A DNA stretch of 64,000 nucleotides from Salibacter halophilus. Lineage in GTDB: Bacteria; Bacteroidota; Bacteroidia; Flavobacteriales_G; Salibacteraceae. The position numbers and the translations under genes were made by a program. Below the pieces are notes generated by a model, which worked only from the letters and a program-made list of their open reading frames with translations, ran no database searches and had not been told where the DNA came from. Shown here one piece after another: positions 36,992 to 51,768 of this stretch (position 1 is the stretch's first letter; each line of letters opens with the position of its first letter). The stretch is from the NCBI RefSeq assembly GCF_008806325.1, contig NZ_WACR01000002.1, positions 248,001 through 312,000 on the forward strand, in the 5' to 3' direction.

Positions 36992-37864
36992 TTGAATAAA
37001 CAGACTGACATAGAAGCACTCATTAAATTACTCGAAGATCCTGACGAAAATATTTATTTTCAAATCAGGAAAGAGTTGATAGATCTTGGCCCCAGCGTAA
37101 TTCCTGAACTGGAAAACCGATGGGAAGAGGAATCATCTCTAGGACTTTTATTTCAATCTCGCGTGGAAGATCTCATCCACGATATTCAGTTCAACAGCGT
37201 TAAAAAAGAGATAAGAGAATGGCGTGACAGTGATGATCACGATTTATTGAGGGGTATGCATTTGATTGCAAAATACCAATATCCTGATCTTTCATTTGAG
37301 TCGCTCGACCGCGCTGTGGAGTCGATTAAAAAAGAAATTTGGATTGAATTGAACAGCAGGCTCACTGCATTTGAAAATGTGCGGATAATGAATCATGTGT
37401 TGTTCAATGTTCACAATTTCCAGGGTAATACTTCAAATTATCACGCTCCGCAAAATTCATTTCTCAATAACGTACTTGACACTTGTAAGGGAAATCCTAT
37501 TTCTCTTTCAATTATTTATATTTTAATTGGTCAGCGACTGGGTTTACCCATCTACGGAGTCAATTTACCCAGGCATTTTGTTGTGGCTTATGTAGATCCT
37601 GTTTTTCAAAGTGATCATCCTACCGAGGAAAATGTATTGTTTTACATCAACCCGTTTAGTAAGGGGAGTGTCTTTGGAATTGACGAGTTAAAGGATTTTG
37701 TGCAACAAATCAACTTACCTGATCATTCACAGTTTTTCAATCCGTGTGACTCGATAACTATTGTCAATCGAGTTCTCAACAATTTAATCAATAGCTACAA
37801 CAAGCTAGGATATCCTGAGAAAGTAGAAGAATTGAAGATTTTGCAGAATACACTTATCGGATAA
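36992..37864 (+). CDS. SirB1/transglutaminase-like family protein
   Basis: About 290 residues. An N-terminal helical segment resembling a HEAT-type repeat (ALIKLLEDPDENIYFQIRKELI) precedes the SirB1 domain (LRGMHLIAKYQYPDLSFE, YHAPQNSFLNNVLDTCKGNPISLSIIYILIGQRLGLPIYGVNLPRHFVVAY), a transglutaminase-like fold in which the usual catalytic cysteine position is occupied in CKGNPISLS and the histidine in PRHF. Function unknown. No ATG begins the frame; TTG at 36992 or 36980 is used. Its last 11 bases overlap the convergent sugar transferase gene. Confidence 0.8.
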   Translation: MNKQTDIEALIKLLEDPDENIYFQIRKELIDLGPSVIPELENRWEEESSLGLLFQSRVEDLIHDIQFNSVKKEIREWRDSDDHDLLRGMHLIAKYQYPDLSFESLDRAVESIKKEIWIELNSRLTAFENVRIMNHVLFNVHNFQGNTSNYHAPQNSFLNNVLDTCKGNPISLSIIYILIGQRLGLPIYGVNLPRHFVVAYVDPVFQSDHPTEENVLFYINPFSKGSVFGIDELKDFVQQINLPDHSQFFNPCDSITIVNRVLNNLINSYNKLGYPEKVEELKILQNTLIG

Positions 37865-38441
37865 TGCGATAGAGTGTTTGAAAAATGATTTTCAAATCTG
37901 TGAAGAAACTCTGCTTTTCAACATATTCACGCCCCAGTTTCAACTTAGCCGGCATGATCTCTTCCCTGTAAGTTTGCTCTGGATTATCGCTTTCAGCAAG
38001 CAGTTCGCTTTCATCGACAAATTTGAGCGATGCGTAATCCGTTAAGCCGGGTCTGACCGATAATACTTCACGTTGTTCTGGCGTGTATAGCTCAACATAT
38101 TTTGGCACCTCAGGCCTGGGTCCCACAACGCTCATTTCTCCTTTGAGAATGTTGAGTAGTTGAGGGAATTCATCGAGTTTGTACTTGCGTAGCAGATAGC
38201 CGATTTTGGTCACGCGAGGATCTCGGTGACCAACGGTGATTTGCAGCTTATCGCTATTGGGCCGCATGGTTCTGAACTTGTAGAGCCTAAATGTTTTGCC
38301 GTTTTTCCCAACTCTTGTTTGGCGGTAAAAAATTCCACCTTTTGAGTCTAACACAATTGCGAGAGCTATTACGGTCAGAACCGGAAATAGCAAAACGAGG
38401 ACGAGTCCTGCACTTACTAGATCAAACAGCCTTTTGAGCAC
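37854..38441 (-). CDS. Initiating phosphoglycosyl transferase (bacterial sugar transferase)
   Basis: A 195-residue monotopic transferase of the PglC type: N-terminal reentrant membrane helix ([31 protein letters not shown]), then [42 protein letters not shown]-like sequence (here [26 protein letters not shown]). It moves a phospho-sugar from a UDP-sugar to undecaprenyl phosphate, the first step of the polysaccharide repeat unit. It starts with GTG and overlaps the upstream aminotransferase gene by 20 bases. Two exact dispersed words lie inside it. Confidence 0.93.
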   Translation of the reverse strand: [195 protein letters not shown]

Positions 38442-39657
38442 GAGACTTCTCCATTACTTTTTCATACGCAGTAACTACAGCATTAATGACTGTATCGATA
38501 TCTTCATCACTCAAATCGTAATAAACGGGGAGTGAAATCTCATGCGTATAATTTTCAAAGGCTTTTGGGTAATGATCAACGTTAAAGCCCATTTTCTTGT
38601 AATAGGTAAGCATCGGTAATGGCTGATAGTGAACGTTCACTGCTACATCCTGCTCGTAGATTTCGTAGATGATCAAATTGCGCTCGTGTTCAGTAATACC
38701 TTTGATACGCAACATGTAAAGATGGTAGTTTGAAATCTTATCATCGGTTTCGTAAGTTGGCGTTATTGCCCAGTCGTTTTTCCCGAGTTCTTTCGTGTAG
38801 CGATCAAAGATGTATCTTCTTTTTGCTAGCGTATCTTCTTCGTATCGTTCCAGTTCAACTAATCCAATTGAAGCCAATATATCAGTCATGTTGTACTTGT
38901 AACCGGGCTCAATTACATCGTATCGCCAGCCACCTTTTTTCACTTTGGCAAAAGCATCTTTCGTTTGCCCGTGAAGTGCTTTTACATTTAGCTCTTTGTA
39001 GATTCTTTCGTGATCGAATCTATCTGGCATGTTGACTGCGAGTGCGCCACCCTCAGCAGTTGTGAGGTTTTTTACTGCGTGAAAGGAAAATGCTGAAGCA
39101 TCGGCTAAAACTCCAGAGTTTTGGCCTTTGTATTTAGCTCCAATACTGTGAGCTGCATCAGCCAGAATTAAAACTCGTCCTAGCAGTTCCTGCCTCTCAT
39201 TGTTGGGTGTAAAAAGTGAGCGAATTTTTTTGGATCTGACAAGTGAGTAGAGTTCGTCATAATCACATGGCATTCCGCCAACATCAACTGGTATAATGAC
39301 TTTAGTGCGTTCGGTAATCAGTGATTCAATCTTGTTGACATCTATGTTGAAGTCATCACCAACATCACACATGACTGGTGTTGCTCCTTTGTGAACAACA
39401 GCATTTGCGGTTGCTGTGTAAGTGTATGAAGGTATAATCACTTCATCCCCTTCTCCAACGCCAAACCAGCTAAGCATCAACTCCATACCGGCTGTACCAC
39501 TGTTGAGGCAAACAATTTTACTTGCTGTGGTAAACTCTGCGAGCCTCTTTTCAAAAAGTTTCGTTTTTGGGCCGGTTGTGATCCATCCTGATTTCAATGC
39601 GTCAACTACTTCCTCTACAATTCTATCATCTACCCTGGGGGGTGAAAATGGTATCAT
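38422..39657 (-). CDS. DegT/DnrJ/EryC1/StrS aminotransferase
   Basis: A 411-residue PLP-dependent sugar aminotransferase: MIPFSPPRVDDRIVEEVVDALKSGWITTGPKTKLFE, CLNSGTAGMELMLSW, VIIPSYTYTATANAVVHKGATPVMCDV, DAAHSIGAKYKG and SFHAVKNLTTAEGGAL with the PLP lysine. It transfers an amino group to a 4-keto or 3-keto UDP-sugar for the glycan repeat. A GGAG Shine-Dalgarno-like stretch precedes the ATG, unusual for this phylum. It overlaps the transferase gene downstream. Confidence 0.93.
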   Translation of the reverse strand: MIPFSPPRVDDRIVEEVVDALKSGWITTGPKTKLFEKRLAEFTTASKIVCLNSGTAGMELMLSWFGVGEGDEVIIPSYTYTATANAVVHKGATPVMCDVGDDFNIDVNKIESLITERTKVIIPVDVGGMPCDYDELYSLVRSKKIRSLFTPNNERQELLGRVLILADAAHSIGAKYKGQNSGVLADASAFSFHAVKNLTTAEGGALAVNMPDRFDHERIYKELNVKALHGQTKDAFAKVKKGGWRYDVIEPGYKYNMTDILASIGLVELERYEEDTLAKRRYIFDRYTKELGKNDWAITPTYETDDKISNYHLYMLRIKGITEHERNLIIYEIYEQDVAVNVHYQPLPMLTYYKKMGFNVDHYPKAFENYTHEISLPVYYDLSDEDIDTVINAVVTAYEKVMEKSRAQKAV

Positions 39658-39712
39658 TTACTCTCCTTTTATTTTTAGCGCTACAAAATTAATCAATTCT
39701 AATCACCGTGCT

Positions 39713-40927
39713 TTAATCGCTGTATGTGAAGTACAAAAATGCGTTAAATATGGCGTAAAAAACGACTCCATCCTGCCGTTCAAAAATAGCTTCTGTCAAA
39801 CAGCTCATAGTTATGATAAAAACGAATAACGGGAAGATGAAGTTGGAATGAATATTTACTTTGAATAACGGGATTACTAGCATTCCAATGAGGGGTAGTA
39901 AACCGAGCAGGCCCAAAGCAACTCCAGATTGAACAAACTGGTTGTGTGCATTGAGGTGCCTTTCCTCTGCGTAATCGAAATTTTCTTTTTCCCATTTATC
40001 ATTCATCACCTCGCTTACATCCCCTGTTCCGTAACCTAACAATGGCTTTTCCTGAAAAAGCTCCCAACTGTACTTCCACAACAATGGCCTGGATCCAGAG
40101 CTGCTCTCCTCGTTCATTACATTTTCTGTAACGTCCTTAAACCGATCGACATACTTAATGCTAACGGCTATAAATCCTGCGGTAAAAACTACTACTAATG
40201 TGAGTGCTATAAGTGGATTTTTGAACCGTATGCGGGGAAATACTAAATAGCTAAATGCATAAGCTAGCAAAAAGCCTAGCACGATAATTCCCATCCTTGC
40301 GGATAGTTGGTAAACTGTGATAATCAAAAAAGTTAGCATCAAGTAATTGTGAAGCTGCACTTTTTCACGATTGTGAAAAATGAATATAATTAGAATCGCT
40401 ATTGCAAAGTTTACATAAATTGAAAAATATCCTGCATGCCTATAATAGCTGAGATATACGTAATAAAAAGACTCTACCTCACCAGATTTATAATATGAGA
40501 TTCCAGCGTACACAAAACTCACAATAGCTGCTAATACTGTAGCGTAGAGGAAAGTTCGCAAAAGCTCTGGCAATGTGAATTTATTGATGACGTTACTCGT
40601 TAAAACGACCCATGGAACGAGTAATAAACTCAGTTTTATCTCCAAATCAAAAAAACCACTACCCAGATCATCACTGTAGATAACACCTATTGCATGTGCG
40701 AGATAATAAGCTGAGAAAAGCCAAATAAAAAACTTTCGCTTTTTGTAGTAGTAAACTCGCTCGTGAAAAGGGTGAATGAAAATATTTGAAGCTGCAAAAA
40801 TGATGAGAGCCCAGGGCAACAATCGCTGCTCAAACGGCAACAAAAACACAACAAGATGAGCCAGGTATAAATTGACTTTCTTGAGATTGATATTTTTTAT
40901 TCCAATGGGTTTACTCAACTGAATCAA
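39713..40927 (-). CDS. O-antigen ligase/polymerase family membrane protein
   Basis: A 404-residue polytopic protein with about eleven membrane spans and a large periplasmic loop in the C-terminal third containing LLWKYSWELFQEKPLLGYGTGDV and HLNAHNQFVQSGVALGLLG, the Wzy_C/WaaL signature with the conserved His. It ligates or polymerises lipid-linked glycan in the periplasm. It starts 36 bases before the wecB stop. Confidence 0.88.
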   Translation of the reverse strand: MIQLSKPIGIKNINLKKVNLYLAHLVVFLLPFEQRLLPWALIIFAASNIFIHPFHERVYYYKKRKFFIWLFSAYYLAHAIGVIYSDDLGSGFFDLEIKLSLLLVPWVVLTSNVINKFTLPELLRTFLYATVLAAIVSFVYAGISYYKSGEVESFYYVYLSYYRHAGYFSIYVNFAIAILIIFIFHNREKVQLHNYLMLTFLIITVYQLSARMGIIVLGFLLAYAFSYLVFPRIRFKNPLIALTLVVVFTAGFIAVSIKYVDRFKDVTENVMNEESSSGSRPLLWKYSWELFQEKPLLGYGTGDVSEVMNDKWEKENFDYAEERHLNAHNQFVQSGVALGLLGLLPLIGMLVIPLFKVNIHSNFIFPLFVFIITMSCLTEAIFERQDGVVFYAIFNAFLYFTYSD

Positions 40928-40963
40928 TATTGCCCAATATTACTCAATTATTACATCATAGGA

Positions 40964-42031
40964 CTAAATAGATAAAATAGCTTTTGCTATTTGCTTTGCA
41001 GCTTCGCCATTACCATATAGATCTGTATCAAAACTAACAGATTTTTTGAGCATCTCTGATGCTTTTTGCTTCAAATCATCCTCAGGCTTAACAAGCTGAT
41101 TTACTCCTTCTTCAACCAATTCAACCCATTCAGTTTGGTCCCTTAAGGTTAAACATGTTTTGTGGAAGAAAAAGGCTTCTTTTTGCAATCCTCCACTATC
41201 GGTCAGAACCATTGAGCAGTTTTTCAAAAGCTCAATCATGTCGAAATAGCCTACCGGATCGATTACTTTCACATTGAGATCTAAATTATACTCTTTAAGT
41301 TTTGCTTTTGTACGAGGATGTAGAGGAATCACAACTGGTTTTACTGATTCGTGAACCTCATTGAGGTTTTCCACAAAAGCTTGAAGTCTTTTGAGATCAT
41401 CGGTATTCTCTGCACGATGTAATGTGCATAGAATAAATTCATTTGGAACTGACTCTACTACAGAGGAAAGTTGAGCTGACTTTTCAGCATAATACAGTGC
41501 TGCATCATTCATGACATCTCCTGAACGCACAATTTCACAGTCAAAATTTTCATAGCCCTCATTCTTGAGATTTTTTATTGCCGAATCAGTAGGACAAAAG
41601 AGTATCGTTGATATTCTATCAGTCAATATTCGGTTGATTTCTTCAGGCATTTCCATATTGAAACTTCTCAAGCCTGCTTCAACGTGACCAACTTTTATAT
41701 GGAGCTTTTGTGCGGCAAGTGCTCCGGCAAGAGTAGAGTTTGTATCACCGTAAACCAAAACCAGATCAGGTTTTTCACTGATAAATACCTCTTCGAGTTT
41801 TTCGAGCATTCTGCCAGTCATAGCACCATGTCCTACTCCATTTATTTCAAGGTTATATTTTGGTTTTGGTATTTCCATTTCGTCAAAGAAAACATCAGAC
41901 ATGTTTTGATCAAAATGCTGACCTGTATGAACCAGTATTTCCTCTACACCGTCATATTTCTTTAACTCCCTGCTTACAACTGCTGCTTTGACAAATTGCG
42001 GACGAGCACCTACTACTGTTATAATTTTCAT
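40964..42031 (-). CDS. wecB: UDP-N-acetylglucosamine 2-epimerase
   Basis: A 355-residue non-hydrolysing epimerase: MKIITVVGARPQFVKAAVVSREL, LVHTGQHFD, VYGDTNSTLAGALAAQKLHIKVGHVEAGLRSFNMEMPEEINRILTDRIS, TDSGGLQKEAFFFHK. It makes UDP-ManNAc from UDP-GlcNAc for the surface glycan. Its ATG overlaps the stop of the upstream glycosyltransferase by four bases. An exact GGTCAGAACC word at 41201-41210 encodes the VLTDSGG motif. Confidence 0.95.
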   Translation of the reverse strand: MKIITVVGARPQFVKAAVVSRELKKYDGVEEILVHTGQHFDQNMSDVFFDEMEIPKPKYNLEINGVGHGAMTGRMLEKLEEVFISEKPDLVLVYGDTNSTLAGALAAQKLHIKVGHVEAGLRSFNMEMPEEINRILTDRISTILFCPTDSAIKNLKNEGYENFDCEIVRSGDVMNDAALYYAEKSAQLSSVVESVPNEFILCTLHRAENTDDLKRLQAFVENLNEVHESVKPVVIPLHPRTKAKLKEYNLDLNVKVIDPVGYFDMIELLKNCSMVLTDSGGLQKEAFFFHKTCLTLRDQTEWVELVEEGVNQLVKPEDDLKQKASEMLKKSVSFDTDLYGNGEAAKQIAKAILSI

Positions 42032-43263
42032 ATTGAAACAAGCTTTTTTAATTCATTGTTAAATGAAGCTGCTATTTTATTGCGATTGAATTTTTGATTG
42101 ACATAATTCCGCCCATTTCGACCGAGTTCTTCCAACTGGATCTGACCATTAGCTATTTTAACAAGCAATGAAGCTAACTCCTTGTAATTTTCTGGCTCAA
42201 ATGGAAGAGCGCACTGCCCCTCATCAGCAAATAATTCTTTAGCCTCGCCTTTTACACCCAGAATAACAGGGTTTTTCATAGCAGCATTTTCAAAGATCTT
42301 AGATGGAATAGCTCCTTCAAAAAGTGGCAGGTTCCTCAAAGGAACAATCGTTGCATCAACGGCTTTAACAACTTTAGGCATAATTGATTTTGGGACAGGG
42401 TCAAAAAAACGAACATTATTGAGATCCATTTTTTTTGAGAGTTCGAGGAGCTCTTTTTTAACTGGCCCATCTCCCATTAAAATGAATTTCAGCTCAGAGT
42501 GATTTTGAACCTCTTTAGCAGCTTTCAGGATCACCTCTAATCCCTGTGCATGACCAATTATGCCACCGTAAAACAAAAGTATGTCAGAACCGGAATAACC
42601 ATTTTCTTTCCTCCAGTCCGATTGTACTTCATCAGGGTTGTAATACGATAAATCAACACCATTTGGCAACCAGAAAGTTTTTAACTGTGGAAATCTTTTA
42701 TCGATATCATTAACTATCCCCTGAGTTTGACCTGTAATCAATGCTGCATTTTTATAGCACCATGCCTCTAGTCTATAAGCTAGATTTAAGAAGAGTTTAT
42801 TTTTTACAAGATCTAATTTTTCAGCACTTTCAGGCCAAAGATCAGATACATTAAAAATCATCTTTGCCTTTAGCTTTCTTGAGAGGAAAACTGCCGTAAA
42901 ACCAAGAAATAGCGGTGGAGATTCTACTAGTAAAAAGTCAAATTGATTCTTTTTAAAATTCTTGCTACCGTATTTCCAACTCGACCAAACAAAAGAAAAG
43001 TAGTTCAATAGTCTTTTTATTATTCCGCTATCCTTACTCACATAGATAGATGATCGGTGTACTGGAATGCCATCGATTTCTTCTCTTTTATTCTTCAGCC
43101 CGATGTACTCTTTGAATATTTCCATTTTGGGGTAGTTGGGCATGGCAGTCAGAACCTCAATGTGGTTCCCCTCATTTTTTAGTCTTACAGCTAACTCGTG
43201 AAGTCTATTTTGTGGAGCACCTGTTTCAGGAGGATAATATTGAGTGAGAATAAGGATTTTCAT
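42028..43263 (-). CDS. Glycosyltransferase family 4 (WbuB-like)
   Basis: A 411-residue GT-B glycosyltransferase: MKILILTQYYPPETGAPQNRLHELA at the N-terminus, FNVSDLWPESAEKLDL, LPNGVDLSYYNP and the C-terminal donor site FEGAIPSKIFENAAMKNPVILG. The closest recognisable type is WbuB, which often transfers FucNAc or a related sugar in O-antigen assembly next to wecB. It lies upstream of wecB with a four-base overlap. Confidence 0.9.
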   Translation of the reverse strand: MKILILTQYYPPETGAPQNRLHELAVRLKNEGNHIEVLTAMPNYPKMEIFKEYIGLKNKREEIDGIPVHRSSIYVSKDSGIIKRLLNYFSFVWSSWKYGSKNFKKNQFDFLLVESPPLFLGFTAVFLSRKLKAKMIFNVSDLWPESAEKLDLVKNKLFLNLAYRLEAWCYKNAALITGQTQGIVNDIDKRFPQLKTFWLPNGVDLSYYNPDEVQSDWRKENGYSGSDILLFYGGIIGHAQGLEVILKAAKEVQNHSELKFILMGDGPVKKELLELSKKMDLNNVRFFDPVPKSIMPKVVKAVDATIVPLRNLPLFEGAIPSKIFENAAMKNPVILGVKGEAKELFADEGQCALPFEPENYKELASLLVKIANGQIQLEELGRNGRNYVNQKFNRNKIAASFNNELKKLVSI

Positions 43264-43283
43264 ACTATAATTAAATTACTGAA

Positions 43284-44996
43284 CTAAAAAATGTTACCAT
43301 TGGCATTTTTCTCAGGAAAATAGAAATCCTCAACATCAAACATTCTTTTTAAAGAATAATTTGTAGGAAAAGTATATAGTTTAGATGTAGTAAATGACTT
43401 TACTTCAGCACTTTCCTTTTTTGAAGTGTATAACACTAATCTCAATTCGCTCAAGTCGTTCAAATTCAGACCTTCAACTCTTTTAAAACCAGCAGAGTGA
43501 AGCAATACCAAGTTAGAAGTATCAGGTTTTAATGGTGAATAATATCTCTCTGCAGAATTTCCATTTTTATCGATCAATAGGATTCTAACACTTCTGGGAC
43601 TGAAATTAGGCTTCACTTTAAATCCAAAATATTTAAACTTGGCTAAATCATTATTTTCTAATGTTAAATGAACAGAATGAGCATTTAAGTCAGCTGTATC
43701 ATTTTCTACAATGAAGTAGTCTTCATTCAAATACTCAACATTTTTATATTCATTAAATGAACCAAATTGAGAATATGAAGTATCAGGAGTTATGTCATTG
43801 AAAGATTCACCTGAAACAGATCCTATGTAGAAACTCTTCCCTGAATAATTCGCATAATAATCAACTGAATTTAACTCCCCAATATCAGAAAGTTTGACAG
43901 AATGAAACACTCGTTTGTGTATAGGAATATTAAATTCCCTGGTATTTTCAATATTAATAATGTCTTTATATTGATTAGTATAATTAAAAACAATTGACAT
44001 TGGGTAAGTATCAATCCAATAAGGATGAGGAGGACCTAAAACACTAAAGAATAATAAGCTATCACTGATTCTCTCAATTGGAAAATGTTTGATAATAATC
44101 TTTGATCTCTTCTCAATTTCACTTATCCAACTACTATCTTTGTCAATACTATTCAATGATGAAAATAGCATCATGTCATAAATTGCATAGTGTGTTGACT
44201 CTATTGTTTTAGGATTAAGCATGTAATAAGTCCAGGAATTATCTTTGTAATAATATTTTTCAGCCAATTTAAAAAAGGCTTGTTTCCCGCTATTGAAAAG
44301 TTTTTCAAGCTCTTCATCATTTGATAAAATAGATAATTGTTTTATCGCAATCATGCTAAATAGAAATCCATTTAACACATAATATGCATCTTCATTATTT
44401 GTATTAAAAGAAGCATATTCTAAGCACCAATCAGAACCATTTTCAGAAACTAAGCAGCCTCCCTGGAAAGTTGGCAGGGTCAGAGATTTTTTCACTCTAT
44501 TATATTCATAGAGGAAAGTTGAATCCTGAAAAATTTGATATCCTTTATAAAAGCTAATTGCAATAGTAGAATTAGCCATTCCAGACCACCAATTTCCCTT
44601 TTGAAATTCACGATGCTTAAAACCATAAGCATATGTTGTCACTTCTCCAGTGTCAATTCTATATTTATAATTCTTCAAAAAGTTTAGATATTCAAATCCA
44701 ATATCAAGGAGTACTGAATCATTTAGTTTGTCTCCATAATAAAGTGAATAATAAGCCTGTCTTCCAATATCCAGAGGGTGGTATTTTTTAAATAAAGTCG
44801 AATCTTTAAATGATGTTTTAATAATTTGATCGTTATACCCCCAAAAAAATGGAGTCCTGAAATCTAATTCCTTGTTTTTATCAAAATTAAACAGTTTCTT
44901 CTTCACAGAATCATCATTAGCACTTTTGCTGGAATAGGGAGAATCACAGGCGGAATAAAATGTGATAATAAAAAGTACTATTAATGTGTATTTCAT
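43284..44996 (-). CDS. D-glucuronyl C5-epimerase-like lipoprotein
   Basis: About 570 residues from the ATG at 44996, which opens a lipoprotein signal (MKYTLIVLFIITFYSAC). The central region carries the C5-epimerase C-terminal pattern: HPLDIGRQAYYSLYYG, NWWSGMANSTIAISFYKGYQIF, EYASFNTNNEDAYYVLNGFLFSMIAI and ESTHYAIYDMML. Relatives convert D-glucuronate to L-iduronate in heparan-type chains. A beta-rich C-terminal part follows. The location inside a polysaccharide cluster fits polymer modification in the periplasm or at the outer membrane. The AT content is markedly higher than in flanking core genes. Confidence 0.65.
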   Translation of the reverse strand: MKYTLIVLFIITFYSACDSPYSSKSANDDSVKKKLFNFDKNKELDFRTPFFWGYNDQIIKTSFKDSTLFKKYHPLDIGRQAYYSLYYGDKLNDSVLLDIGFEYLNFLKNYKYRIDTGEVTTYAYGFKHREFQKGNWWSGMANSTIAISFYKGYQIFQDSTFLYEYNRVKKSLTLPTFQGGCLVSENGSDWCLEYASFNTNNEDAYYVLNGFLFSMIAIKQLSILSNDEELEKLFNSGKQAFFKLAEKYYYKDNSWTYYMLNPKTIESTHYAIYDMMLFSSLNSIDKDSSWISEIEKRSKIIIKHFPIERISDSLLFFSVLGPPHPYWIDTYPMSIVFNYTNQYKDIINIENTREFNIPIHKRVFHSVKLSDIGELNSVDYYANYSGKSFYIGSVSGESFNDITPDTSYSQFGSFNEYKNVEYLNEDYFIVENDTADLNAHSVHLTLENNDLAKFKYFGFKVKPNFSPRSVRILLIDKNGNSAERYYSPLKPDTSNLVLLHSAGFKRVEGLNLNDLSELRLVLYTSKKESAEVKSFTTSKLYTFPTNYSLKRMFDVEDFYFPEKNANGNIF

Positions 44997-45057
44997 ACTA
45001 GTTAAAAATAAAGGGATTAAAACATCACTTTGAAAAACCAAAAAACACTACTGCTTT

Positions 45058-46173
45058 TTATGTGTTAATGAGTCTCCTGTAAAGATCTATTAAAACTTGA
45101 GACTCTTTTTGCCAGTTGAGCATATTTACCTCCCTTAACCCTTTTTCTACTCTTTCACTTAATTGCTTTTGATCACTAATCATATCGTCAATGCTTTTTG
45201 ATATCTTCTCACTATCTGAAGGGTCTGTAAATTTAGCAACACTATGAAAGTTCTCTTTCCAATACGCGATATCTGACATTAATATAGGTAAACCTGCAGC
45301 CATATATTCAAAGGCTTTATTTGGTAGAGCAATTTTATGGTTTTTGATGTCCTTATCAAATAGAATTAAACCAATGAGCCCTTTCTCTTTTAAGAAAGTA
45401 TAGACTTGCTTGCTATCCTTAAATCCCCAATAGCAAACCTTACTCCAACCTTTTGAACGTTTACATATGGTCATATAGTCCTTAGACTCCCACTCTCCAA
45501 ATAAGTGTAAAACTTTAATCTGATAAGATTTACCAACTGCATCAATCATCTCCTTTATATTCCTTGCTGAAGTAAGCCCTCCAGCATAAACGGCACCTTT
45601 TTCAGCCTTTTGCATTTCTGGACTAAGTTCTTCACCCTTAAAATTATCAAGTATCGGTAAGTTTCTGATAAGAACCTTTTCATTTTGAATATACCTTTCC
45701 AACAGTGGCTCTGCTACAGAAATTACTGCGTCCAACTGCTTTGAAACATTAAGTTCATATTTTTCAAATACTTTAGAAACGAAATTTCTAACAAATTGAA
45801 AAGGGATCCACTCTTTATCGATAATTGATGCAGGAGTATTTTCATGTGCATCATAAATCACCAACTTACCTAACTTTTTTAACTTTAGTGCTATAGGTAA
45901 TAGCTCAGGATCATGAATATGATAAAGCTGACTATTAATTTCAACTGCCCTTTGATAGCAATCTTTAGAAAGTTTAAAAATACGATCGATTCGAGATGAG
46001 GGTTTTCTAACACCATGTATTTGGACACCTTCAATTGTAACGTCTTTTTCCATTTGGCATATTAAATGGACGTCAAACCCCTTATCTACTAGTGATTTAC
46101 ACTCCTTTTGAAATATTCTTATGTCATTCCAGGAATGAACTGAAGTTATGTGACAAACACTGGTTTTCATCAA
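45058..46173 (-). CDS. Glycosyltransferase (GT-B, family 4 type)
   Basis: A 371-residue enzyme: MKTSVCHITSVHSWNDIRIFQKECKSLVDKGFDVHLI at the N-terminus, YHIHDPELLPIALKLKKLGKLVIYDAHENTPASI, VYAGGLTSARNIKEMIDA and the C-terminal LPNKAFEYMAAGLPILMSDIAYWKE donor site. The acceptor is unknown. It begins the run toward the epimerase and WbuB-like genes; a TATGTTTG element lies 28 bases upstream of its start. Confidence 0.88.
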   Translation of the reverse strand: MMKTSVCHITSVHSWNDIRIFQKECKSLVDKGFDVHLICQMEKDVTIEGVQIHGVRKPSSRIDRIFKLSKDCYQRAVEINSQLYHIHDPELLPIALKLKKLGKLVIYDAHENTPASIIDKEWIPFQFVRNFVSKVFEKYELNVSKQLDAVISVAEPLLERYIQNEKVLIRNLPILDNFKGEELSPEMQKAEKGAVYAGGLTSARNIKEMIDAVGKSYQIKVLHLFGEWESKDYMTICKRSKGWSKVCYWGFKDSKQVYTFLKEKGLIGLILFDKDIKNHKIALPNKAFEYMAAGLPILMSDIAYWKENFHSVAKFTDPSDSEKISKSIDDMISDQKQLSERVEKGLREVNMLNWQKESQVLIDLYRRLINT

Positions 46174-46200
46174 CTATAGAACTATTTTTAATAAAATCTG

Positions 46201-46222
46201 CAAACATAAGCATCAATGCTTA
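46201..46222 (-). promoter_or_regulatory. TATGTTTG element and adjacent palindrome in a divergent region
   Basis: On the minus strand TATGTTTG (46208-46201) matches the -7 consensus for the glycosyltransferase gene. Directly upstream is the dyad TAAGCAT-CA-ATGCTTA (46207-46222), between this promoter and the divergent chain-length gene. It may be a regulator binding site. Confidence 0.4.
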
Positions 46223-46261
46223 TTCTACTTAGCAGAATTCATTTAATTTGCAATTGTAAAT

Positions 46262-47008
46262 ATGACATACATGAAAGAAGAGGAAATCAATATAAGCTCA
46301 TTACTCAAGTTTATCGCAAAAACAATTAAGAGTCACTTTCTTCTTATTTTAATAGCTGGAATAAGTGGAGCTATTATTGGATACAGTTTTTATTCTTTCA
46401 AAACCCCTGTTTATAAAACATCTGCAATTTTTCAATCTACTCTATTACATCCCTTTGAAGTTCAAAGCACGGTAAATCAACTAAATGACCAATTAAAAAA
46501 CTCATCATCTGAATTTCAATCACTTAAATTTTGCAGAAATATTGAGATTATTGCCCCATCGAACATTAAACCTGAAGAGGATGATTTTGAGAAAAGCAAA
46601 ATGCACTTCATAACAATTGCAATTGAAACCGTCAATCCTGAAGCTTCATATAAAATGAGTAATGAATTAGTTTCAATTTTTAAAGATAACTCTAAGCTCA
46701 GTGAAATGTTTGAAAGCAGAAAAGCTGTTTTAACTAGACATATTTCGAGACTCGAGAAAAAGTTATCAGACGAGTCCCGCAATAATTTAAATAATGTTAC
46801 AATTCAGAATTTGTCTCAATCTGAAAAAAGTCTTTTCACTGAACTGGCAGAAGTAGAATTAGCTTTAAGTGAATTATCAATTCTCAAAGAAATCAAGCCC
46901 TTTTATACTCCAACTAATCGTGTATCAAGTCCTTCTCTATTTATAATTATTGGTGCTTTAGGAGTTATTATACTCACTTTCATTGTCCGCTGGATTATCA
47001 AGAGTTGA
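46262..47008 (+). CDS. Wzz-like chain-length determinant protein
   Basis: A 248-residue protein with a membrane span near each end (SHFLLILIAGISGAIIGYSFY and SLFIIIGALGVIILTFIV) and a periplasmic coiled-coil region between (LTRHISRLEKKLSDESRNN ... EKSLFTELAEVELALSELS), the plan of polysaccharide co-polymerases. No C-terminal tyrosine kinase is attached. It is the only plus-strand gene of the cluster and its last 51 bases overlap the convergent polymerase candidate. ATG at 46262 or 46271. Confidence 0.72.
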   Translation: MTYMKEEEINISSLLKFIAKTIKSHFLLILIAGISGAIIGYSFYSFKTPVYKTSAIFQSTLLHPFEVQSTVNQLNDQLKNSSSEFQSLKFCRNIEIIAPSNIKPEEDDFEKSKMHFITIAIETVNPEASYKMSNELVSIFKDNSKLSEMFESRKAVLTRHISRLEKKLSDESRNNLNNVTIQNLSQSEKSLFTELAEVELALSELSILKEIKPFYTPTNRVSSPSLFIIIGALGVIILTFIVRWIIKS

Positions 47009-48265
47009 TTTTGCAGTTTGGTTTAAAAAGATCATTGAGAATAAAATCAGGGCAAAACCACCATGAGTAAGCATTGACGTAAACAGTCCTGAGTTTAATA
47101 ATGTGAATATAAACAGGAAATATAGTCCGAAAAAACCAGCACTAATATTCAACGAATCAAAAAACATAAACATCAATGCAACAAGGACAGTGATAAAAAA
47201 TAATCCAACGTAACCAAGGTTAATAACAGAATCACTAATAAAACCACTATTTGCATTTACGCTCTCCTCTCCAAAATAAATAAGTCCAATCATCGAAGCT
47301 GGTTCAAATGGGTACGGATAATCAAAAAAGCTACTCATAAAGCTATAACCGTAATATAGATTTTCTCCTTCAAAAAAATCAAGATAAGCCTGATTTAAAT
47401 ATGCAGGAAGAAAAAACACTCTTCTAACCATTAGAGAGTTCAACATCAACTCACCATTCGAGGCAGCAATAGTTCCTATCAAAGTGAATACTAATATTCC
47501 ACTCAGGAGCAATGTAAACTGATAATCATGCTTTTTAACCAAAGCAAATCCTAAGACTACAACTGCTGAAAAAATAATACTCTTATGCGGTGTCAATGTA
47601 AACATGAGTATCATTAGTGTTACTCCTACTAAACCTAACCAGTAACGCTTATGCAAAAGATAGTAAGCTATCATCATAGGCAGTAAAACTTTAACATATG
47701 GAGATAGCAAGTACCCTAAAAAGGGAATATTTACATGTGAAACCTCTTTCCTTATCTCATAGATAGCCCCACTAAAAGTAAAAAGGCTTAAATCAAAATG
47801 AAAGTCATATATAATTGCGAATGGAATAAAGCCTATTACAGATAACAACAAAAAAACTAATGACTGCTCCCTGATAGATAGGATTGGCATTCTTAGGTTG
47901 GGTATTCGAAACATGTCCCACGATAATAAAGCTATAAATAATAAAACCATCAATGATGGAATAATGGTGTACTCCCTATGCATCCACAAAATAATATTGG
48001 GAATCAAAAACAGAATTTGAAAAACACCACTAACAATTCTTAAGAAACTCGACCCAATTGAAAACAATAAAAATAAGGATCCACCAAATAAGACTATAGC
48101 TATCAAAAGCTCTAAAACTGTGACCCCATCACTAGTAAAGCCAGAATATTCGTAATGCTTAACCAAAAAATTAGGATATAGAATATTCATCATTATAAAA
48201 AAGGCAACTAATAAAAGCAGTTGTATAAACCTATTTATACTTGTTTTCTTAATAACGTACTCCAT
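46958..48265 (-). CDS. Candidate polysaccharide polymerase (Wzy-like)
   Basis: A 435-residue integral membrane protein with about twelve hydrophobic segments, and a periplasmic loop near residues 265-330 (RRVFFLPAYLNQAYLDFFEGENLYYGYSFM). No close family motif is visible, which is usual for Wzy proteins. The position between the flippase and glycosyltransferase genes supports the call; the O-antigen ligase-like protein at 39713 is the alternative polymerase. Confidence 0.55.
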   Translation of the reverse strand: MEYVIKKTSINRFIQLLLLVAFFIMMNILYPNFLVKHYEYSGFTSDGVTVLELLIAIVLFGGSLFLLFSIGSSFLRIVSGVFQILFLIPNIILWMHREYTIIPSLMVLLFIALLSWDMFRIPNLRMPILSIREQSLVFLLLSVIGFIPFAIIYDFHFDLSLFTFSGAIYEIRKEVSHVNIPFLGYLLSPYVKVLLPMMIAYYLLHKRYWLGLVGVTLMILMFTLTPHKSIIFSAVVVLGFALVKKHDYQFTLLLSGILVFTLIGTIAASNGELMLNSLMVRRVFFLPAYLNQAYLDFFEGENLYYGYSFMSSFFDYPYPFEPASMIGLIYFGEESVNANSGFISDSVINLGYVGLFFITVLVALMFMFFDSLNISAGFFGLYFLFIFTLLNSGLFTSMLTHGGFALILFSMIFLNQTAKSTLDNPADNESEYNNS

Positions 48266-48272
48266 TTTATTG

Positions 48273-49544
48273 CTACCTTTTTAAAATTCCCTTTTCATAT
48301 TCTCTTAAACTATATAATGTTAATACGAAGTATACTGAATAAGCTAATACTTCAAAAAGGACTAACATCTTAATAAATAAATCAAAATCAACACTCCTGT
48401 AAAAATATAGAGTCAACATTAAAATAACGTACAGCACTGGAAAAATAAGTGCCAACTTCAATCTTTTTAGAGCAATTAATAATTGACCAAAGGGTGAAAT
48501 CATAAATTTAAAAACAAATCCAAAAATTAAAATTGTAGCTAACTCTCCAGACCGCTTCCAGCTCTCTCCAAAAAAGAAGACAAACAGATCTTCACCAAAT
48601 GTGCTAATTATCAAAATCACAAATATGCCTATTGAAAGGAGAATTTTAATTATAGTAGAAAACTCATTCTTAAGGGACTCTCTGGTATTTATTTTATGCG
48701 CAATACGTTGAAAGTATACATTGCTCAAAGTCATAGATAATAGAGACAATGGCACGAATAAATACTGTCTTGAAAAGTTATAATACCCAGTTTGCTCAAC
48801 TGTAAAAAAAATCGTTATCATGAAAATAATGATGTGACTAGCAGTATCATTTAAAAAAGTTGATAAGACATTTAATCTAGGAAACTGCTTATATGTTCTA
48901 GCAACTCGAATTATTCTATCAACAGATATCTTTTCTTTGAAAAAACCAGATATACTCAAAAATATAAGCACCAAACCTATAAAGGCTAACCACCCTGAAA
49001 AGTACCCAAAAACCAAACCATCCTTTAATCCCCAATAACCTAGAAGTACAGTGAAAATTGAAATCCCCCCCCCCTGTACAACCTTAGCAATAGCATTTTT
49101 TGAATACAATCTGTTTCTATTCAACCAGTAATTAAATGGTTTGAAAAGTGCCATTACCCATAATAATGGTGGAATAATATATATAGTGTTACCTAAAATC
49201 TCTGCATTCAATAACTTTAGAATATCACCTTTGAAAAGGAAAATAATCAAGAGTATTAACAGCGATATTAAAAGCGAAATAAAAGCAGCTAACCTAACCA
49301 GAGCTTTAGAGTCAGATCCTTTTTTAGGAAGCATAACAGCCATTTCATATCTGCCTCCCGCTACATTACTTATAGAACTAACAACTGCTGATACAATTGC
49401 AAAAACCCCAAACTGTTCAGGAGTATACAATCTTGAAATAATTGGAGAAAACAATAGAGGAAGTGCTGAAGCAATCAACGTTCCAGAAAAAAGCGTAGAA
49501 AAGTCCTTTATAAAATCATTTTTAAAAAACTTCCTTATACCCAT
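48273..49544 (-). CDS. Wzx-type polysaccharide flippase containing a G10 tract
   Basis: A 423-residue protein with about twelve membrane spans; start FFKNDFIKDFSTLFSGTLIASALPLLFSPIISRLYTPEQFGVFAIV is typical of MATE/PST-superfamily repeat-unit flippases. The coding strand carries ten consecutive G (49074-49065), encoding Gln-Gly-Gly-Gly around residue 158. Gaining or losing one G would shift the frame and truncate the protein, so the gene is probably phase variable. It is currently in frame (on). Strongly AT-rich otherwise. Confidence 0.87.
   Translation of the reverse strand: MGIRKFFKNDFIKDFSTLFSGTLIASALPLLFSPIISRLYTPEQFGVFAIVSAVVSSISNVAGGRYEMAVMLPKKGSDSKALVRLAAFISLLISLLILLIIFLFKGDILKLLNAEILGNTIYIIPPLLWVMALFKPFNYWLNRNRLYSKNAIAKVVQGGGISIFTVLLGYWGLKDGLVFGYFSGWLAFIGLVLIFLSISGFFKEKISVDRIIRVARTYKQFPRLNVLSTFLNDTASHIIIFMITIFFTVEQTGYYNFSRQYLFVPLSLLSMTLSNVYFQRIAHKINTRESLKNEFSTIIKILLSIGIFVILIISTFGEDLFVFFFGESWKRSGELATILIFGFVFKFMISPFGQLLIALKRLKLALIFPVLYVILMLTLYFYRSVDFDLFIKMLVLFEVLAYSVYFVLTLYSLREYEKGILKR
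49065..49074 (-). repeat. Homopolymer of ten G (coding strand)
   Basis: Ten C on the plus strand inside the flippase gene, the only G/C run of this length in the window and conspicuous in AT-rich DNA. Such tracts change length by slipped-strand mispairing. Confidence 0.97.
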
Positions 49545-49839
49545 TTGATAAATTTAGACTTTTCACCATCTCCTAATAAACCTACTATAATCAACAAGGA
49601 CTTCAAGTTTAACTCAAAGTTGGTTCAAGTTAATGCAAAAGCAAATTAATATAGAAATACTCCAACACAAGAAGGATTCTATTATCAAATCTGAAGTACT
49701 TTGTATCATCTACATTTTTCAATATTCAAATTGCTATTACATTAAATAATACAAACATATCCTACTTCTCTTATCTAAACCTACATCAAAAAGACCTCAA
49801 GTTAAATACTATCTACAATATACTTTGCCAGATTAACCA
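49545..49839. other. AT-rich intergenic gap between the two flippase genes
   Basis: About 295 bases, extremely AT-rich, without a supported gene, hairpin terminator or exact TAnnTTTG promoter on the minus strand close to the flippase start. It may be a junction between cluster modules. Confidence 0.4.
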
Positions 49840-51174
49840 TCAAAGTTCCTTGAGCGATTTCCTAATACTGAGAGGTGAGGCTATTGCGATAATATTGAGT
49901 TTTTTCTTAACTACAATTGCACTGATTATATTCCATACTGCTGTACTAATTGCTGTTGAAATAGCTGCCCCTTCCATTCCGTACTCAGGAACGAGTATTA
50001 TGTTCAGAACCAGGTTTAATATAGCTGTCACAATTAAAACATACTGACTATAGACCTGGTTACCTGTCATTTGCAATAAGTACATTACAGATCCTGAAAG
50101 TGAATTCACCAACTGACCACATATTAATATTATGAGAGCTGACTTAGCTAAGGTGAAAGACTCTCCAAACAACCCTAAAAAGAAATCGCTGAATGAAATG
50201 ATCACAATTGTTACCGGAATAAGTGCTATAAAGACTAAGTTGGCACTATTAGTGACAATTGATTGCAGGTTTTTCATTTCTTTCATTTCATAAGCATGAG
50301 CCATTTTGGGTGCTGTAATGGCATTCACAGAAAAAAGTGCCAGTGTCGTAAGGTTAGCAATCTTCAGCGCTATATGATAATGACCAATACTTTCCTCACT
50401 TACATAAATTGCTAGAACAAACTGATCTGTCCATCCCATGATGAGGAACAACATGCCACTGATCAACATCGGGAAGCCGCGCTTGATGAGATCTGTATAC
50501 GAATACCTGTGCTCTGACCGAAACTTACCGAGTTGGGATTGCCTGTACCAAATAGCAAAGCTGTAAATACAAGTAAATACTAACGCAATATTGTATAACC
50601 AAAACATTACGGTAGGATATGGATACATCAATCCAATTGTAACAACCATTAAAATGGTGAGTCCTGAGGGAAAAATGCGATCGAGAGAAACATATTGCTC
50701 TACTTTTCCCTGTGATCTCAATGCCTCTCCATTCAACCTTGTAAGAGCTAATGGTATAATGCCGAGTATGGCAATTCTTAAATACGGAAGACTATTGGGT
50801 TTTTCAAAAACCTTTTCTGCAATATACGGTAGAACAAACCATCCTATTGATGTTAAGAGTATCCCCCAAACAAAAATCGAAAAGGCTGTTTTTTTATAAT
50901 CGCTTTTAAGTTTTCCCTGTTGGTCTTGAATTGGTTTTGAGGATGATATTTGAAGAAAAGAGATATCCAATCCTCCCTTCGCAATAGCAGCTCCAACCAT
51001 GAGTACCATCTGTCCAATTGCAAATAACCCAAATACTTCTGGACCATAGATTTGAGCTACGGCTATATTAAATAAATAAGTCAGCCCCATTCCAATAAGC
51101 CTGACAACAAGAGTTGAAAAGCTTTTACTTAATATACCAGTCTTTTGAACAGTGCTTTTATCGTTTGTAGACAA
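49840..51174 (-). CDS. Second Wzx-type flippase
   Basis: A 444-residue protein with about fourteen hydrophobic segments; GILSKSFSTLVVRLIGMGLTYLFNIAVAQIYGPEVFGLFAIGQMVLMVGAAIAKGGLDISFLQ at the start and paired repeats in the C-terminal half (MEGAAISTAISTAVWNIISAIVVKKKL) fit the oligosaccharide flippase family. Its sequence differs from the other flippase in the cluster, so they are not a recent duplication. The gap to the acetyltransferase stop is nine bases. Confidence 0.85.
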   Translation of the reverse strand: MSTNDKSTVQKTGILSKSFSTLVVRLIGMGLTYLFNIAVAQIYGPEVFGLFAIGQMVLMVGAAIAKGGLDISFLQISSSKPIQDQQGKLKSDYKKTAFSIFVWGILLTSIGWFVLPYIAEKVFEKPNSLPYLRIAILGIIPLALTRLNGEALRSQGKVEQYVSLDRIFPSGLTILMVVTIGLMYPYPTVMFWLYNIALVFTCIYSFAIWYRQSQLGKFRSEHRYSYTDLIKRGFPMLISGMLFLIMGWTDQFVLAIYVSEESIGHYHIALKIANLTTLALFSVNAITAPKMAHAYEMKEMKNLQSIVTNSANLVFIALIPVTIVIISFSDFFLGLFGESFTLAKSALIILICGQLVNSLSGSVMYLLQMTGNQVYSQYVLIVTAILNLVLNIILVPEYGMEGAAISTAISTAVWNIISAIVVKKKLNIIAIASPLSIRKSLKEL

Positions 51175-51183
51175 CTTATTGAG

Positions 51184-51768
51184 TTATTGGATTTTCTTCA
51201 CCACTCCATCTTTGAGAGAATACTCTTCACCACTTTCAGGACATTTAGCGACACCATCCTCATCAAAGTGCAGGCGGTGACCGTATTCACTCATCCAGCC
51301 TATTTGTTTGGCCGGATTTCCAACTAAAAGTGCGTAATCAGGAACGGTTTTAGTCACAACTGCTCCTGCTCCAATGAATGCGAATTTTCCAATATCGTGA
51401 CCGCAAACAATCGTTGCATTAGCACCTATACTGGCTCCGCGTTTCACTGTTGTTCTTTCGTATTGTCCTCTGCGAACTACATTACTTCTGGGGTTTGTGA
51501 TGTTGGTGAACACGCAACTGGGACCTAAAAAAACATCATCTTCACAATTGACACCTGTGTAGATAGATACATTGTTTTGAACTTTCACATTATTACCCAA
51601 ATGCACATCAGGAGATACAACTACGTTTTGCCCGATGTTGCATTTTTCTCCCAAAACACAATTTTTCATCAAATGCGAAAAGTGCCAGATTTTAGTTCCG
51701 GCACCAATTTCACAACCTTCGTCAACTACTGCGGTTTCGTGCGCAAAATATTTTTGGTCAGATCCCAT
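51184..51768 (-). CDS. Left-handed beta-helix acetyltransferase (WbpD/WlbB-like)
   Basis: A 194-residue hexapeptide-repeat enzyme: IGAGTKIWHFSHLMKNCVLGEKCNIGQNVVVSPDVHLGNNVKVQNNVSIYTGV, then SIGANATIVCGHDIGKFAFIGAGAVVTKTVPDYALLVGNPAKQIGW, followed by a short CPESGEEYSL tail. It matches the N-acetyltransferases that complete UDP-2,3-diacetamido uronic acids. A GGTCAGATCC word abuts the start codon (51756-51765) and encodes Gly-Ser-Asp-Gln after Met. The gene follows rny by one base. Confidence 0.9.
   Translation of the reverse strand: MGSDQKYFAHETAVVDEGCEIGAGTKIWHFSHLMKNCVLGEKCNIGQNVVVSPDVHLGNNVKVQNNVSIYTGVNCEDDVFLGPSCVFTNITNPRSNVVRRGQYERTTVKRGASIGANATIVCGHDIGKFAFIGAGAVVTKTVPDYALLVGNPAKQIGWMSEYGHRLHFDEDGVAKCPESGEEYSLKDGVVKKIQ

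Follow-up and report, generated by a model that had tools for sequence, protein, structure and literature searches.

Is the run of ten G residues in a Salibacter halophilus flippase gene a switch for phase variation of a surface polysaccharide, or is it an incidental homopolymer that happens to be prone to slippage? The tract lies in the window, a 64,000-nucleotide stretch of contig NZ_WACR01000002.1, where positions 49065-49074 are exactly ten C on the plus strand and read as G10 on the minus (coding) strand. It begins with the third base of Gln157 and continues through Gly-Gly-Gly160, and the minus-strand reading across it, ...GTA CAG GGG GGG GGG ATT..., gives Val-Gln157-Gly-Gly-Gly160-Ile in frame. 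The gene around it (48273-49544, minus strand, 423 aa) has a G+C content of 31.1%. The open reading frame, its composition, and the sequence itself bear out the description in the earlier note of a G10 tract encoding Gln-Gly-Gly-Gly in the coding strand of an AT-rich, Wzx-type flippase gene. The use of GGG at all three Gly positions is a free codon choice, and GGG accounts for 11% of the Gly codons in the genes around the tract.

Contingency genes are recognized by a homopolymer of about eight or more bases at which a change of one base shifts the downstream frame, and the G10 tract is of this type. Its length also agrees with the range in which tracts are known to slip in other bacteria, as had been proposed. 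We computed the products predicted for neighboring tract lengths and obtained 207 aa for G8, 167 aa for G9, 208 aa for G11, and 168 aa for G12. The proposal that a one-base change would truncate the protein after about 160 residues is consequently accurate for G9 and only rough for G11. Since the tract falls in approximately the fifth hydrophobic segment of the protein (residues 151-169), truncation by a frameshift would remove most of the transporter.

The assignment of the gene as the flippase of a polysaccharide locus is supported by its match to Pfam Polysacc_synt_3 (E 8e-18, 65.1 bits, cut-off 23) and by the neighboring polysaccharide genes. Matches to the MOP flippase and TuaB models fell below cut-off. 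The protein has 13 hydropathy segments, some overlapping, in line with the approximately 12 or more of a Wzx/MOP flippase, and its gene has the location within a polysaccharide gene locus that is looked for in this class. Its syntenic orthologues (L002/L051 and L003/L050), which are 56-57% identical, have QGVSIS and QGMSIS in place of QGGGIS, with CAGGGTGTTTCA and CAGGGAATGTCA as the DNA at the site. As the alignment through the tract is free of gaps, length 10 (or 7 or 13) is in frame. The tract is absent from these two nearest orthologues and from all 26 homologues examined, among which the longest G run at the site is 5, and the best matches to the flippase in the two other available genomes of the genus are <30% identical. 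On the basis of these comparisons, the tract is private to the S. halophilus genome among the genomes available.

The polysaccharide locus extends from 37854 to 51768. Its minus-strand genes begin with a putative sugar-phosphate transferase (initiating enzyme, 37854-38441) and a putative sugar aminotransferase (PseC/DegT-like, 38422-39657), both named from profile matches below cut-offs. Profile matches identify a Wzy_C/O-antigen ligase family protein (39713-40927), a glycosyltransferase (42028-43263), a D-glucuronyl C5-epimerase C-terminus family protein (43284-45041), and a second glycosyltransferase (45058-46173) that is kept in relatives; WecB, the UDP-GlcNAc 2-epimerase (40964-42031), matched above cut-off. 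On the plus strand, a membrane protein (46262-47008) without a Pfam match, possibly chain-length determinant-like, is a guess from shape; it too is kept in relatives. Directly downstream of the flippase lies a polymerase-like membrane protein (46958-48265, minus strand), also kept in relatives, for which we found no Pfam or NCBIfam match and whose role is suggested by its position. The edge of the locus is formed by a hexapeptide-repeat acetyltransferase-like gene (51184-51768, minus strand), named by profile search and the synteny of relatives, and the gene beyond the locus is one that we take to be ribonuclease Y. Within the locus, we found only weak, short tandem repeats, and promoter and terminator scans gave nothing beyond chance. 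Two loci (L050 and L051), from Flavobacteriales MAGs that belong to a different genus in the family, carry most of the locus genes in the same order.

Our preferred explanation, to which we give a probability of roughly one half, is that G10 is a genuine homopolymer, likely recent, which forms an incidental slip-prone hotspot in the dedicated Wzx of a conserved locus. We regard an incidental, slip-prone run as somewhat more likely than an evolved contingency switch. According to this model, the tract would most likely be of recent origin, and length 10 corresponds to the ON state, in which the frame is kept. If replication slipped to G9 or G11, the protein would end at 167 or 208 residues; slippage back to G10 would restore it in full, and a small fraction of cells would be expected to carry reversible flippase-off alleles. 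This explanation is supported by a G10 that is in frame, has homology to either side, and is private to the genome among those available.

The expectation of slippage comes from analogy. In a meningococcal reporter tested over the range G5-G13, the median switching frequency of the wild type peaked at G10 (1.2e-7); for G10-G13, no difference between the wild type and a MutL-deficient background was observed (PMC4085013). Meningococcal phase-variation frequencies of 1e-4 to 1e-5 are cited in the same work (PMC4085013). The S. halophilus genome encodes both MutS1 and MutL, and slippage at some raised rate would be expected at its tract as well. We consider G10 to be a real and probably slip-prone frameshift site.

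Pattern searches of the 3.12 Mb genome identified G10 as its longest G/C run; no other reaches 9. Only one further run, a C8, reaches 8, and the total at 7 or more is seven, including one on contig C16 with flanks that we take to be 23S rRNA-like. Extrapolating from these seven runs at 0.12-0.25 per base, we expect about 0.01-0.11 runs of 10 or more per genome, a value calculated after the run was noticed that serves as a guide and not as a clean test. Within the window, the probability of a G/C run of length 1-4 gaining one base is about 0.11-0.2. Thus, G10 is unusual in this genome, yet not astronomically so. That it is the sole run of at least 9, in a genome with MutS1 and MutL, supports an incidental origin. 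Its rarity (0.01-0.1 expected) counts against such an origin when combined with its gene class, surface-glycan genes being the class in which contingency tracts are expected. The same is true of the C8, the only other run of at least 8, which lies in the coding strand of a wza-like export gene (L142:9299-10373, on the contig designated C8); the two coding runs of at least 8 that the genome contains are thus in polysaccharide export genes. A G7 (a G/C run of 7) is located about 205 bp upstream of the C8, and two of the seven runs of at least 7 therefore fall within 400 bp at the wza-like gene on that contig.

We then surveyed the family, in which 24 of 35 genomes contain one or more G9+ runs. 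Besides G10, the family has no fewer than 67 such runs, and we retrieved the regions around these 67, some of them in low-complexity sequence where contigs end; a few further runs near contig termini were omitted. Of the 67, 41 overlap an open frame of 150 aa or longer, and a Pfam scan of 29 proteins from such G9+ frames returned mixed functions. Many of the G9+ genes encode outer-membrane or secreted (Por_Secre_tail) proteins, but MurD, a DHH phosphoesterase, a LuxR-type regulator, and a histidine kinase are also among them. In the relatives G003 (L077:3855-6079) and G016 (L094:3398-4977), we observed pairs of similar neighboring genes for probable secreted or surface proteins; both members of each pair have a G10 or G11 at an equivalent position, with tract residues GGGANALV and SIDY.GGGD.

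A congener (G001) has an in-frame G10 near the start of murD (L127:3977-5308), and this is the only murD above cut-off in its draft genome. MurD is generally essential, and a contingency role would not explain the run there; hence, a G10 by itself is no mark of a switch. With in-frame G9 or G10 runs in housekeeping genes of the family, murD included, tract length alone is not diagnostic of a contingency gene. The wide variety of genes and locations in which the family has G9+ runs supports the explanation of the flippase tract as incidental. The G10 in murD (L127) led us to reject the proposition that long G runs are confined to surface genes in this family, and we set aside an aroB-like gene in L108 as a second housekeeping case, as it is a second copy below cut-off.

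The flippase nonetheless remains a plausible candidate for a contingency locus of a well-known kind, and we tentatively hold it possible that selection maintains the tract. ON/OFF switching would then vary the surface polysaccharide, while a second flippase either compensated for the loss or transported another repeat unit. The gene sits within a surface-polysaccharide locus, no G/C run in the genome is longer than its tract, which includes three unforced GGG codons, and an additional flippase has been inserted next door. Further support comes from a relative (G009), in which the gene of a WecA/MraY-like transferase, adjacent to wza/wzc-like genes, contains a G10 (L101:3717-4851, contig C25). 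The two tracts share their length, a surface-glycan area, and the family; in contrast to the flippase tract, that of the relative is in a different gene, near the 5′ end, and out of frame. The halves of the WecA-like gene are in different frames around its G10, the upstream frame ending SSHSIPTILGGG, and the break reflects an OFF allele or else a draft error. As an out-of-frame G10 in such a gene, it counts against an incidental origin of the flippase tract. The coincidences of the wza-like C8/G7 and the WecA-like G10 are post hoc and few, yet they keep a contingency role alive. Against such a role stand the homologues that lack the tract, its solitary occurrence in the genome, and the G10 in murD of the congener. 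The location of the tract, residue 157 of 423, also speaks against such a role, since losing this kind of transporter can trap the lipid carrier; the known polyG genes considered here are ones such as that of the glycosyltransferase pglG. The prediction of phase variation in the earlier note is thus upheld with respect to the flippase, the tract length, the early truncation, and the presence of a second flippase, whereas the private tract, the encoded MutS/MutL, and the G9 and G10 runs in housekeeping genes of the family weigh against it.

The second flippase, which the earlier note placed nearby, is a MatE/Polysacc_synt protein of 444 aa identified by profile match (49840-51174, minus strand). 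A 295-bp gap separates it from the first flippase. The two are about 24% identical, and the best relative of the second in 40 other genomes is 38% identical. In L050 and L051, no second flippase is found between the acetyltransferase and the orthologue of the G10 flippase, which in L050 follows 15 bases after the acetyltransferase. Owing to this absence from the syntenic loci of relatives, the second flippase is best read as an insertion in the S. halophilus lineage, and the first flippase is the locus's own. A backup role for the inserted gene, as a hypothesis, is compatible with this. We consider it unlikely, though, that poly-G switching takes place in the locus's own Wzx and is tolerated because of the new flippase, with the exported glycan changing and recycling of the lipid carrier left unblocked. 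Relaxed constraint, in which the second flippase made the first dispensable and the run grew in a decaying gene as frameshifts ceased to matter, would fit the insertion being absent from relatives; we find it decidedly improbable, as the reading frame remains open across all 423 codons, conserved residues have not been lost, and the 56-57% identity to orthologues is in line with that of the locus neighbors at 46958 (48-49%) and 45058 (53%). Lastly, homopolymers of such length are prone to errors, and an assembly or sequencing error had been raised as a way to refute the switch, but we give this scarcely any credence: length 10 keeps the full frame with homology on both sides and no gap, which makes a frame-breaking error of one or two bases very unlikely, and only an error of three bases would escape notice.

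An incidental but slip-prone G10 can be compared with known systems. The polyG/polyC genes of Neisseria (pglG, hmbR, hpuAB) and Campylobacter jejuni likewise have a coding G tract of 9-11 in a surface-related gene, and there, as in the flippase, a one-base change truncates the product. In those organisms, tract length is documented to vary from cell to cell and from strain to strain. Their genomes contain many such tracts compared to one tract of 9 or more in S. halophilus, and the affected gene is a transferase or receptor rather than a flippase. Bacteroides fragilis, of the same phylum, is known to switch its capsule loci by DNA inversion and not by slippage inside wzx. In its capsule loci, Wzx is found beside polymerase and transferase genes (PMC3090145), an arrangement that the S. 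halophilus polysaccharide locus shares. We found no poly-G phase-variable Wzx in Bacteroidetes in the literature searched, although a search this limited says little.

What the tract means for the organism depends on whether it switches. Homopolymer-driven switching of surface glycans is known mainly from host-adapted pathogens. If the tract does switch, such switching would extend to this Flavobacteriales family (Salibacteraceae), and the step affected, export of the repeat unit, would be an unusual one; it would amount to phase variation at the level of the flippase, in a lineage of Flavobacteriales that is not known to be host-adapted. If it does not, tract length alone over-predicts phase variation, as the run of equal length in murD of the congener illustrates.
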